This document shows positions 4,551-9,041 of a stretch of 40,549 bases of DNA, in pieces. This DNA comes from Methylocystaceae bacterium (GTDB taxonomy: Bacteria; Pseudomonadota; Alphaproteobacteria; Rhizobiales; Beijerinckiaceae): NCBI GenBank assembly GCA_009773555.1, contig WSXZ01000048.1, positions 5,894-46,442 on the forward strand, written 5' to 3'. The first letter of the stretch is position 1. Every line of letters begins with the position of its first letter. Under the pieces are notes generated by a model. That model did no database searches and had not been told where the DNA came from. It saw only the letters and a program-made list of their open reading frames with translations. Position numbers and translations under genes: made by a program.

Positions 4551-4958
4551 ATGGCAGACGCCGACACTGACGGGCTCGCCGCGCGGCGGCCGCTGTCGCC
4601 GCATCTGACGGTCTTTAGGCCCATCCTGACGATGATGATGTCGATCGCGCATCGAATCACCGGCGCGGGGCTTTACGTCGGCATGGCGCTTCTGGCGCTG
4701 TTCCTGCTCGGCGCCGCAGTTGGCGGCGTCGCCTTCTCCGCCGTGTCCTGGATCGGGTCGGGCTTCATCGGCAATCTGCTGGTGCTGATGATCGTTTGGG
4801 CGATTTTCCACCATCTGCTCGGCGGCGTGCGTCACGCGCTCTGGGACCGCGGGCTTTACATGGACGCGAAGGGGCGGGAACTGCTGGCGCAAGGGACGCT
4901 CGTCGGCGGCATCCTGTTGACGCTGCTCGTCTTCATCTTCAAGACGCTGGCGAGCTGA
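4551..4958 (+). CDS. sdhC: Succinate dehydrogenase cytochrome b556 subunit
   Basis: The 135-residue inner-membrane protein has three transmembrane helices. The N-terminal RPLSPHLTVFRP and SIAHRITGAGLY are the SdhC signature for quinone binding. The haem-ligand histidine lies in FHHLLGGVRHALWD. With SdhD it anchors SdhA/SdhB to the membrane, binds haem b and passes electrons from succinate to ubiquinone in complex II. It is the first gene of the sdh operon; sdhD follows after 13 bases. Confidence 0.96.
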   Translation: MADADTDGLAARRPLSPHLTVFRPILTMMMSIAHRITGAGLYVGMALLALFLLGAAVGGVAFSAVSWIGSGFIGNLLVLMIVWAIFHHLLGGVRHALWDRGLYMDAKGRELLAQGTLVGGILLTLLVFIFKTLAS

Positions 4959-4971
4959 GCGGAGCGAACTC

Positions 4972-5367
4972 ATGACGGTTGCGACGAGGTTCAAGAGCGG
5001 TCGAACCGGACCCGGCGACGCCTATGTCTCCGACCATAGCGGTTCGCCTCACGCACGCTTCATGCGGTTGACGTCTTATGCGCTGGTCCCGCTTGGCGTG
5101 TTGAGCGCCTGGTGGATTCTTGGACTTGCCGGCAAGCCGCTCGAAGGCGTGCGCGCCGAGATCGGCAGACCAATTCCCGCACTCGTGCTTCTTGCGTTCG
5201 GCGTCATCGGCATGATCCATGCGCGACAAGGCATGGACGACATCATCGAAGATTATGTGCACGATAAAGTGTTGAAGGCGCAGGCGATCGTCGCCAACAC
5301 ATGGGCGTCGCGCGCCATCGCAGCGATCTGGGTCCTCGCGATCCTCCTCATCGCTGCGCCGAAGTAG
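4972..5367 (+). CDS. sdhD: Succinate dehydrogenase membrane anchor subunit
   Basis: The 131-residue product has three hydrophobic segments. The motif MIHARQGMDDIIEDYVHD carries the conserved histidine and arginine near the quinone/haem site. It pairs with SdhC in complex II. The ATG at 4972 is preceded by GGAGCG and lies 13 bases after sdhC. The 145 bases between its stop and sdhA contain no convincing gene. Confidence 0.95.
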   Translation: MTVATRFKSGRTGPGDAYVSDHSGSPHARFMRLTSYALVPLGVLSAWWILGLAGKPLEGVRAEIGRPIPALVLLAFGVIGMIHARQGMDDIIEDYVHDKVLKAQAIVANTWASRAIAAIWVLAILLIAAPK

Positions 5368-5512: not shown

Positions 5513-7345
5513 ATGGTTGCAAAGGGTCCTGCATCAAATGTGTCGGTGGGCGGTCGCGCCTATGCGATCGTCGATCACACCTTTGACGTCGTCGTCGTCG
5601 GGGCGGGCGGATCGGGCCTTCGCGCCGTCGTCGGCTGCGCCGAGGCGGGACTGAACGTCGCCTGCGTCACCAAGGTCTTTCCAACCCGCTCGCACACCGT
5701 GGCGGCGCAGGGCGGCATCGCCGCCGCGCTCGGCAACATGGGGCCGGACAATTGGAAATGGCACATGTACGACACCGTCAAGGGCTCCGACTGGCTCGGC
5801 GACCAGGACGCCATCGAATATATGTGCCGCAACGCCCCGCCCGCCGTTTATGAGCTGGAGCATTGGGGCGTCCCCTTCTCACGCACCACGGAAGGGACGA
5901 TCTACCAGCGTCCGTTCGGCGGGATGACGACGGACTTCGGCAACGGCCCGCCGGCGCAGCGCACATGCGCGGCCGCCGATCGCACCGGCCACGCGATGCT
6001 CCATACGATGTATGGCCAGGCGCTGAAGCTTGACACGAAGTTCTTCGTCGAATTTTTCGCGCTCGACCTCATCATGGATCAGGACGGCGCCTGTCGGGGC
6101 GTCGTGTGCCTGAAGATCGATGACGGAACGATCCATCGTTTTCGCGCCGCGCTCACCGTGCTCGCGACCGGCGGCTATGGCCGCGCCTACCTTTCCGCGA
6201 CGTCGGCGCACACCTGCACCGGCGATGGCAACGCCATGGTGCTGCGCGCGGGGCTGCCGCTGCAGGACATGGAGTTCGTGCAGTTTCATCCGACGGGAAT
6301 CTATGGCGCGGGCTGCCTGATCACCGAGGGCGCGCGCGGCGAAGGCGGTTATCTGACAAACAGCGAAGGCGAGCGCTTCATGGAGCGCTACGCGCCTTCA
6401 GTGAAGGATCTTGCGCCGCGCGACATGGTTTCGCGCGCCATCACCGTCGAGGTTCGCGAGGGCCGCGGCGTCGGCAAGAATCAGGATCACGCCTATCTGC
6501 ATCTCGAGCATCTCGATCCGCAGATTCTGCATGAGCGGCTGCCGGGCATCTCAGAAAGCGCGAAAATTTTCGCCGGCGTCGACGTGACGCGCCAGCCGAT
6601 CCCGATCATTCCGACCGTGCATTACAATATGGGCGGCATACCGACGAATTATCACGGCGAGGCGTTGCGCAAGCGCGACGGCAATCCCGACGAGGTGGTG
6701 CCGGGCCTGATGGCGCTCGGCGAAGCCGCCTGCGTTTCCGTGCACGGCGCCAATCGCCTCGGCTCGAATTCGCTCATTGATCTCGTCGTCTTCGGCCGCG
6801 CCGCGGCGCAGCGCGCCGCCGAACTCATCAAGCCGAACGATACGCAGCCGGAGCTCCCCGCGGATTCGGCCGATCTCGCGCTGTCGCGTCTCGATTTTTT
6901 CCGCAACGCCAACGGCGGGACATCGACAGCCACATTGCGCGACAGGATGCAGCGCACGATGCAGTCGCATTGCGCCGTCTATCGCACCGGCGAGGTCCTC
7001 GCCGAAGGCGTCGAACAGATCAACGCCGTCTGGCGCGACGGCGCCGACGTCAAGATCACCGATCGCTCGCTGATCTGGAACTCCGATCTCGTCGAGACGC
7101 TGGAATACGACAACCTTATCGTGCAGGCCGTCACGACGATGGAAAGCGCCGCCAACCGCACCGAATCGCGCGGCGCGCATGCGCGCGAGGATTTTCCGAA
7201 TCGCGACGACAAGAACTGGATGAAGCATACGCTCGCGACGATCGATCGCGAGAGGAAGACCACCTCGATCGATTATCGCCCGGTGCACAGCTACACGATG
7301 ACGAATGAGGTGGCTTACATCGAGCCGAAGGCGCGGGTGTATTGA
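5513..7345 (+). CDS. sdhA: Succinate dehydrogenase flavoprotein subunit
   Basis: The 610-residue catalytic subunit oxidises succinate to fumarate in the TCA cycle. The FAD dinucleotide-binding motif [13 protein letters not shown] is at about residue 26. The histidine that carries covalent FAD is H61 in [11 protein letters not shown]. Active-site segments [15 protein letters not shown] and [11 protein letters not shown] are present, and the C-terminal YRPVHSYTM is typical. Length matches the family. GAGAAGG lies about 8 bases before the start. Its usual next gene, sdhB, is displaced by about 900 bases by an AT-richer insert. Confidence 0.97.
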
Positions 7346-7364
7346 GGAACCTGAGGGCGTGGGA

Positions 7365-8252
7365 ATGAACAGAAAGGAGAATTTGCCGAGGGCTTTGCGT
7401 AGCCCTCTACCGATCTTCACAACGGATCTGTTCGAGTACTCATTGGCCGATCAAGGCATTAATATTGGCTTCGGAGCTGGAATACCGCCACGACTGGAAA
7501 AAAAAGTAAAGGCTGCGGCTATTACTTACAAATTAGGTAATAAATCCGTAGATTACGTCCTCAAAAACTATTTCAGAGATGAAGCTGACGAAGACATGGA
7601 GGAGCGGGCGGATGTCGAAGTGAATAAGTACGTTGAAATGTCAGCCGCGGTTTTCGAGGATATCGTTTCAAATATTGCTGACAAGGCAGATAGTCTTGGC
7701 TCGATATTGTGTGAGATGACGCTTGTAAGAATTTGCTACAGCCTGAAGGTTGCCCTCTTTACCGCTAACGTGGGCGCTCTCTTTGAAACCTGTGTGCTTG
7801 CTCGGATGATTTTGGAGCAATTGAGCTGGGGTATTTCTGTGGACGGTATTGCCGAGGAGCAGTCCGTCGTAACGAAGCGAGCACAGGGTTCACTATCCTC
7901 GCTTAGGAAAATCTATCCCACCGCTGGTCGAATATATGGGTACCTAAGCAACCATGCGCACTGGAGTTATCCCGAGCACACGAAGTCGATTTTCTCGGAT
8001 GGCGGCAAGTGGACCGTGTTGAAGGCAAATTCAGATAGCAAAGCGCAATCGTTGCTTTTGGTCCTATTGGTGGTCGATGTAATCGATGCTGTGTTGGAAT
8101 CGTTGCGACCGGACGCGCGCTCTCATGTCGGATCACCATCTAAGGCCATGAGCAAGAAACATACGCTTGAACACGTAGACGCCCTAATGACCATAGTAAG
8201 AGATCGCGACGAAGCTGCTGGCATCGTTTCCCTTTTCAATAGGGGGAGCTAA
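7365..8252 (+). CDS. Unknown AT-rich gene inserted between sdhA and sdhB
   Basis: This 295-residue protein is not part of any sdh operon I know. Four consecutive 60-base blocks from 7441 contain 30, 21, 29 and 24 G+C (43%), whereas a block inside sdhA (6781-6840) has 43 of 60. It is soluble by eye apart from hydrophobic helices around ICYSLKVALFTANVGALFE and SLLLVLLVVDVIDAVLES. The central LFETCVLARMILEQLSWG and YGYLSNHAHWSYPEH resemble all-helical DUF5677-like proteins, which I offer only as a hint. The start at 7365 lies 19 bases after the sdhA stop. Its TAA is directly followed by the sdhB ATG, and AGGGGGAG at its 3' end serves as sdhB's ribosome binding site. Function unknown; recent horizontal acquisition is likely. 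Confidence 0.8.
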   Translation: MNRKENLPRALRSPLPIFTTDLFEYSLADQGINIGFGAGIPPRLEKKVKAAAITYKLGNKSVDYVLKNYFRDEADEDMEERADVEVNKYVEMSAAVFEDIVSNIADKADSLGSILCEMTLVRICYSLKVALFTANVGALFETCVLARMILEQLSWGISVDGIAEEQSVVTKRAQGSLSSLRKIYPTAGRIYGYLSNHAHWSYPEHTKSIFSDGGKWTVLKANSDSKAQSLLLVLLVVDVIDAVLESLRPDARSHVGSPSKAMSKKHTLEHVDALMTIVRDRDEAAGIVSLFNRGS

Positions 8253-9041
8253 ATGGTCGAATTCACCCTCCCCAAGAACTCCGTCGTCGCCGAGGGCAAG
8301 ACGTGGCCGAAGCCCGAAGGGGCCGAGCGCCTGCGCGAATTGCGCATCTATCGATGGGACCCCGACGACGGCGCCAATCCGCGCATCGACACCTATTTCA
8401 TCGACGCCGACGACTGCGGGCCGATGGTTCTCGACGCGCTGATCTGGATCAAGAACCGAATCGATCCGACGCTGGCCTTCCGTCGCTCCTGCCGCGAGGG
8501 CATCTGCGGCTCGTGTTCGATGAATATCGGCGGGCTGAACACGCTCGCCTGCACCAAGGGCATGGATGAAATCGACGGCGCGATCAAAATCTATCCGCTG
8601 CCGCATATGGCGGTGGTCAAGGATTTGGTGCCCGATCTGACGATCTTCTATGAACAATACGCGGCGATCCAGCCCTGGCTGCGCGCCGGACCAGACCCCG
8701 AGAAGGAGCGGCTGCAGTCGCCGGAGCAGCGGGCCAAGCTCGACGGTCTCTACGAATGCATCCTGTGCGCCTGCTGCTCGACGGCCTGTCCGAGCTATTG
8801 GTGGAACGCCGATCGTTTCCTGGGTCCCGCGGCGCTGCTGCAGGCGTTCCGCTGGGTGCAGGACTCGCGCGATGAAGCGACGGAGGATCGCGTCTCCTAT
8901 GTCGACGACATCTTCCGCCTCTACCGCTGCCACACGATCATGAATTGCACCCAGGTCTGCCCGAAGGGTCTGTCGCCGGCCAAGGCGATCGCGGAACTCA
9001 AAAACATGGCCATCGCCCAGGACGAAGCGGAGTCGCGCTGA
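8253..9041 (+). CDS. sdhB: Succinate dehydrogenase iron-sulfur subunit
   Basis: The 262-residue electron-transfer subunit links SdhA to the quinone site. The 2Fe-2S cysteines are C80, C85, C88 and C100 ([14 protein letters not shown]). The 4Fe-4S and 3Fe-4S motifs are [16 protein letters not shown] and [18 protein letters not shown]. The first ATG abuts the stop codon of the inserted gene, so translation of sdhB is now likely coupled to that gene's translation. Protein length is normal, so the insertion left sdhB intact. Confidence 0.97.

Follow-up and report, generated by a model that had tools for sequence, protein, structure and literature searches.

Accessory-gene hot spots are usually sought at tRNA genes, at integrases, and between operons; hot spots of insertion as such, and toxin-antitoxin genes that hitch-hike, are of a known kind. 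A literature search over titles and the openings of abstracts, mostly outside the subscription journals, gave no report, among the matches listed, of a hot spot inside sdhCDAB or of the protein family described here. Searches of the same kind on DUF5677, on sdh together with toxin-antitoxin genes, and on insertion into core operons gave nothing relevant among the titles and abstract openings listed. Aditi is named among defence systems in two papers, and DitA is not named in the available portions of their text (PMC10121019, PMC12926258).

The stretch of DNA analysed here (the window, 40,549 nucleotides) comes from a Methylocystaceae bacterium (contig WSXZ01000048.1) and carries an sdhCDAB operon. 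sdhC (4551..4958, +; Pfam Sdh_cyt, E-value = 4.4e-21) and sdhD (4972..5367, +; Sdh_cyt, E-value = 1.4e-7) are followed by sdhA (5513..7345, +), which is complete up to its TGA stop as judged from the open reading frame call, Pfam, and the identity of its 3′ blocks with those of the congener G164. sdhB (8253..9041, +) is complete from its ATG onward by open reading frame call, Pfam, and flank identity. The sdhA-sdhB gap is 907 bases long and is occupied by one AT-rich open reading frame of 295 codons (7365..8252, +), as the original prediction had it. An ATG further upstream, at position 7305, would lengthen the product to 315 amino acids. The frame is judged to be more than a chance open reading frame, since five homologues are found in other genomes; pairwise identity among the six members is 24–38%. 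From homologues, alignment, and composition, the product appears to belong to a rare family that is remotely DUF5677-like.

The insert reads in the operon direction, and Shine-Dalgarno-like stretches precede both it and sdhB. The first, GAGGG at 7353–7357, was seen by eye in the 19-base spacer (7346..7364, +) that follows sdhA. The second, AGGGGGAG (8241..8248, +), lies within the last codons of the insert and by eye is likely the sdhB ribosome-binding site. The TAA stop of the insert (8250–8252) directly abuts the sdhB ATG at 8253. That the insert ends against sdhB and supplies its ribosome-binding site had both been predicted. The G+C content of the insert is 48.5% and its GC3 is 0.536, compared with 64.3% and 0.813 for sdhA and 63.2% and 0.844 for sdhB. 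The AT contrast originally proposed is therefore right in direction but not in size (43% versus 72%), those two figures having been derived from small hand-picked blocks.

A search for SdhB over 30 relatives yielded 28 matches, and the hit in G161 (E-value = 8.8e-4) is too weak to count as SdhB. The sdhA-sdhB gap is measurable in 17 congeners, 14 from this search and three (G089, G114, G135) from the family survey described below, among the matches listed. In 10 of the 17 the gap is one base or less, with a stop, one base, and an ATG, or else an overlap; three show gaps of 24, 36, and 48 bases. G152, G160, and G156 have a gap of 751–859 bases with a FitA-like ribbon-helix-helix and PIN pair that is VapBC-like by Pfam, and G017 has a gap of 356 bases containing a small 89-codon open reading frame. 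In G154, another congener, no sdhA lies closer than 1.5 kb to sdhB.

The congeners G164 and G153 are among the nearest with an empty site. Compared with G164, the last two 100-base blocks of the window sdhA are 96 and 97% identical and the first two of sdhB are 95 and 96% identical. For G153 the four corresponding values are 96, 97, 98, and 98%. Thus empty sites in congeners, together with sdh flanks that are 95–98% identical up to both edges, indicate that about 0.9 kb is gained precisely and with no damage to sdhA or sdhB. The gene is in the gap of none of the 17 measured congeners, and its GC3 of 0.54 stands against 0.81–0.84 for its sdh neighbours. The prediction of a foreign gene, inserted without damage and missing from close relatives, holds on these comparisons, and the gene is not a fixture of most related genomes. 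The possibility that the entire sdh operon had been transferred was rejected, since sdhA and sdhB of the window closely match those of congeners. An assembly misjoin or contamination, also raised in the original prediction as a possible source of error, might be suspected from the draft state of the host genome (144 contigs). It is so improbable as to be practically negligible, because both flanks are native within a single contig and the arrangement recurs in three other assemblies.

The family survey measured the sdhA-sdhB gap in 121 of 149 genomes among the matches listed. Six of the others show no sdhA in the sequence covered and 22 are unmeasured (contig ends, sdhB unrecognised, no match, or not retrieved); Methylocella tundrae G144 is not among the 121. 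A gap of at least 250 bases is present in 45 of the 121 genomes, the host included, again among the matches listed. As a control, the junctions of the operon were compared in about one genome per genus, 40 in all; these were taken mostly in handle order, after many of their sdhA-sdhB gaps had been seen. All four sdh genes were recovered from 39. A gap of at least 200 bases is found at sdhA-sdhB in 12 of the 39, at sdhC-sdhD in one, and at sdhD-sdhA in none. The Fisher p for sdhA-sdhB versus the two neighbouring junctions pooled is 5e-6, a value that is only a guide since the sampled genomes are related. Without the three genomes picked last (G017, G057, G078; two occupied) the counts are 10, 1, and 0 of 36. 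The one sdhC-sdhD gap over 200 bases among the 39 is that of L176 (G003), at 274 bases.

With varied cargo at one junction in relatives and empty sites in others, the sdhA-sdhB junction is an insertion hot spot in this family. It is not inviolate in this group, since cargo is found there in about one third of the measured family genomes and in three other lineages.

The nature of the cargo was assessed with a Pfam scan of 78 open reading frames (two from L008, one being the window's own gene). Matches are to PIN (9), CRISPR_Cas2-type (9), DUF433 (8), DUF5615 (6), PIN_10 (6), FitA-like ribbon-helix-helix (4), Kdo hydroxylase (3), I78 inhibitor (3), methyltransferase (2), and PIN_2 (2) families, with some open reading frames matching several. 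Single matches include a glycosyltransferase, a PhdYefM antitoxin, and a Cys-rich CPCC protein. PADLOC labels nine of the cargo open reading frames Cas2 and one mad2. We take the Cas2-type proteins in the gap to be VapD-like, and the DUF433-DUF5615 pairs are presumably toxin-antitoxin modules. A cruder motif count per genome, covering 42 of the 45 occupied gaps, gives PIN in 8, Cas2/VapD in 9, DUF433/DUF5615 without PIN in 6, and none of the searched motifs in 12; G108, counted in the DUF433/DUF5615 group, is a methyltransferase by Pfam. Toxin-antitoxin-type genes occupy about half of these junctions (22 of 42), the other half holding other or unknown genes.

The VapBC-like pairs of the congeners (L008 809–1491; L009 809–1491; L014 2284–2960) consist of a FitA-like ribbon-helix-helix protein of 77–80 amino acids and a PIN protein of 148–149 amino acids by Pfam. 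The Cas2/VapD-like proteins display a YAI-FD-D motif and are about 112–144 amino acids long; they are found in the gap of L158, L161, L089, L169, L154, L094, L118, L134, and L091. Their genes, present in nine family genomes, are possibly a long-standing resident of the gap. A Kdo hydroxylase (PF11004, best E-value = 6e-106), a lipopolysaccharide enzyme, is situated between sdhA and sdhB in L080, L091, and L137. Thus the cargo is not only toxin-antitoxin-like, and the glycosyltransferase, methyltransferases, and I78 inhibitor likewise represent cargo in some neighbours that is not defence-like.

The six known members of the inserted gene's family are the window gene and those of Methylocella tundrae (G144; L002/L034), Hoeflea (L035), Rhizobium tubonense (L036), a Gemmatimonadaceae MAG (L037), and G582 (L038/L069). 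The host, M. tundrae, Hoeflea, R. tubonense, and Gemmatimonadaceae genomes each carry one copy. Within the taxonomic family of the host, a homologue is found in two of 149 genomes (the host and G144). Searches with a two-row alignment show it in one of 397 genomes of the order, the host only, and in two of 385 of the class, the host and G582; G144 is missing from the order result and presumably lies outside the 397 genomes drawn. Searches with a six-row alignment show it in one of 349 genomes of the phylum, the host only, and in one of 10 genomes of the family of G582, G582 itself. A search of genome contigs with two sequences gave four loci and added the Hoeflea, R. tubonense, and Gemmatimonadaceae members, and the single window sequence gave no match in the contig search. 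No homologue was found in plasmids (tblastn), in phages (window protein as query), or in viral contigs.

Three of the five relatives, those of M. tundrae, Hoeflea, and R. tubonense, are likewise located exactly between sdhA and sdhB. The original prediction had expected the gene in hot spots of other lineages; its presence at the same junction in three of them is a stronger result. The M. tundrae gap is 938 bases. The R. tubonense insert overlaps sdhA by a single A (TAATG), and its stop, like that of the Hoeflea insert, falls within the first codons of sdhB (ATGGTTGA). The remaining two copies lie elsewhere. The G582 copy has a TTG start 26 bases after guaA (GMP synthase by Pfam) and reads in the same direction; the 3′ end of guaA is a known island integration site. 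The Gemmatimonadaceae copy (L037, WYBP01000022.1) is found between attC-like repeats of about 135–150 nucleotides (GCCTAAC...CGTTAG) in an integron-like array, with seven to eleven copies of the repeat depending on the part compared. The array (L037 1–10076) also contains unrelated open reading frames, and one open reading frame in it carries a 21-nucleotide tandem repeat (about 6428–6868).

In the six-row tree the M. tundrae copy joins Hoeflea and Rhizobium (93/95) and not the window. A clade of window and Methylocella, as vertical descent within the family would give, is disfavoured with a p-AU of 0.029, a weak result from six rows with long branches. This grouping and the disfavoured clade make separate arrivals at the sdhA-sdhB junction likely, the alternative being spread through recombination in the conserved flanks.

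The location of four of the six known members between sdhA and sdhB, with overlaps in Rhizobium and Hoeflea, might also suggest that the protein acts on complex II, in assembly, regulation, or flavinylation, and that the gene is kept at the junction for this purpose. A single clade of the four sdh-borne copies is not rejected (p-AU = 0.46), which would accord with such a role. However, the gene is missing from nearly all searched relatives, including congeners with adjoining sdhA and sdhB, one member follows guaA and another belongs to an array of attC repeats, and unrelated genes are found at the same junction in many relatives. Moreover, all five alphaproteobacterial copies are AT-rich (GC3 of 0.39–0.54; 0.68 in the Gemmatimonadaceae copy). 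An accessory function in SDH is thus quite unlikely.

The attC-like array and the occupation of the same junction in three other lineages could instead point to a site-specific element, an integron cassette or homing-type element that recognises the sdhA-sdhB junction and carries the gene. But no attC core (GTTRRRY or RYYYAAC) is present within about 60 bases of either window junction, and there is no second gene, hence no recombinase, between sdhA and sdhB. Unrelated genes share the junction, and the junctions vary among hosts, with spacers of 19, 17, or 4 bases or a 1-base overlap. We consider such an element very unlikely.

Another reading is that the junction merely tolerates insertions and that the gene is a passenger with no selected function at this site. 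The heterogeneous cargo and the 12 of 42 occupied gaps with none of the searched motifs are consistent with it, but two observations are not. The frame is fully open in all six divergent members, which share 16 invariant columns, and this argues that the family is under selection somewhere. In addition, the two neighbouring junctions lack the insertion excess seen at sdhA-sdhB. A neutral passenger is therefore unlikely, though it deserves some weight.

The invariant columns cluster in part in two motifs defined from alignments of the six members. The first, ARMILEQLSW (amino acid positions 146–155; 7800..7829, +), contains R147, L150, E151, and W155, and the second, GRIYGYLSNHAHW (positions 188–200; 7926..7964, +), contains G188, Y191, G192, S195, and H199. 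The window protein has no Pfam, PADLOC, or NCBIfam match at E ≤ 10 and no PHROGs match at E ≤ 1; one other member matches phrog_31456 at 0.2. None of the six members has a PADLOC match at E ≤ 10, DitA included. PDB sequence searches gave chance-level hits only (E ≥ 0.28; E ≥ 0.38 for the DUF5677 alignment) and none for the Rhizobium member. DUF5677 (PF18928) is the best or only sub-threshold Pfam match in four of the six members (E-value = 0.0095–0.11) at 13.0–16.5 bits, below the gathering cut-off of 27.1; a fifth member, like the window protein, shows no match.

The residues offer a closer comparison. Across eight proteins of the order that match PF18928 (seven exceed the cut-off), an R, an E, and an H are the sole invariant residues besides the start Met, and the same RxxxE and later H occur in the same order (R147, E151, H199) in all six members. 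Profile comparisons are mixed. With hhalign the untrimmed comparison gives a probability of 1.2%, and the trimmed domain gives 25% (34% in global mode; P = 7.6e-4) with both motifs aligned. A DUF5677 HMM run on about 1,000 sequences (6 real, 996 shuffles, 6 reversed) places five of the six members in the top nine, yet the best scores 7.6 bits against 7.5 for the best shuffle; in the reverse test the top DUF5677 protein and a shuffle score alike (4.8 bits). The suggested kinship with DUF5677 is plausible, though below threshold, with the shared residues in its favour and mixed profile results. Three of the eight DUF5677 proteins match the PADLOC DitA model (best E-value = 1.7e-59), which we take to be part of the Aditi system (Millman et al. 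2022).

The reading we favour, with moderate confidence, is that the insert is a horizontally acquired, promoterless, single-gene hitch-hiker, transcribed with SDH and probably encoding a DUF5677-like protein of defence or toxin type. The cargo sits exactly between the stop codon of sdhA and the start codon of sdhB, at a junction where accessory genes, toxin-antitoxin types prominent among them, have settled repeatedly in this family and which harbours a relative of the insert in Hoeflea and Rhizobium as well. Its message would form part of the SDH operon transcript, and its 3′ end would serve as the sdhB ribosome-binding site, so that sdhCDAB would keep working. The cargo may also be hard to lose, because a deletion that overshoots would damage complex II. 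The encoded protein, marked by an RxxLE ... YxxLSxxxH signature, would most likely act alone; no toxin-antitoxin partner gene adjoins the insert. The constitutive expression, coupling to sdhB, and defence or regulatory role originally suggested are conjectural. We infer co-transcription, selection by linkage, and a defence or toxin-type function from the company at the junction, the copy in the attC array, the patchy distribution, the foreign composition, and the remote resemblance to DUF5677; the route of DNA entry is likewise a matter of reasoning from sequence. Between 7100 and 8500 there are no terminator-like sites, which is weak evidence since shuffles average only 1.3, and two promoter-like sites, one on each strand (1.1 in shuffles).

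In a wider and more tentative form, the alphaproteobacterial sdhA-sdhB junction may be a general harbour: addiction and defence genes that are unrelated to one another would enter it again and again, draw their expression from the respiratory operon, and be held in place through linkage to complex II. The window family would then be a single-gene defence or toxin protein without a name, with at least two separate arrivals. The hot spot, detected by counts of gap length, falls between genes for subunits of a single enzyme, in an operon that ranks among the most conserved in the cell. If the pattern is general, operon-internal junctions would be an overlooked source of genes for toxins and defence, and the SDH operon would suggest a way for promoterless cargo to be expressed and, with no addiction partner of its own, retained. 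The locus also offers genomic access to a protein family that has no name.

With regard to known systems, an integron gene cassette is resembled by the Gemmatimonadaceae homologue, in its attC-like array, and not by the window gene, whose junctions are without an attC core. DitA is linked to the family only via DUF5677; no member matches its model, and the insert has no adjacent partner gene. From DUF5677 itself the family differs in a shorter spacing between the two motifs and in an extra N-terminal region with conserved residues of its own (A50, S61, D63, Y69), while it shares the RxxxE followed by an H in a YxxxSxxxH-like stretch. VapBC, DUF433-DUF5615, and Cas2/VapD-like genes are unrelated to the insert in sequence. 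VapBC and DUF433-DUF5615 are two-gene modules, whereas the gap in the window holds a single 295-codon open reading frame and not the two adjacent small genes of a type II toxin-antitoxin module. However, all three kinds of gene are like the insert in junction and direction, and the VapBC pairs in the genus of the window are, like the insert, missing from most measured congeners.
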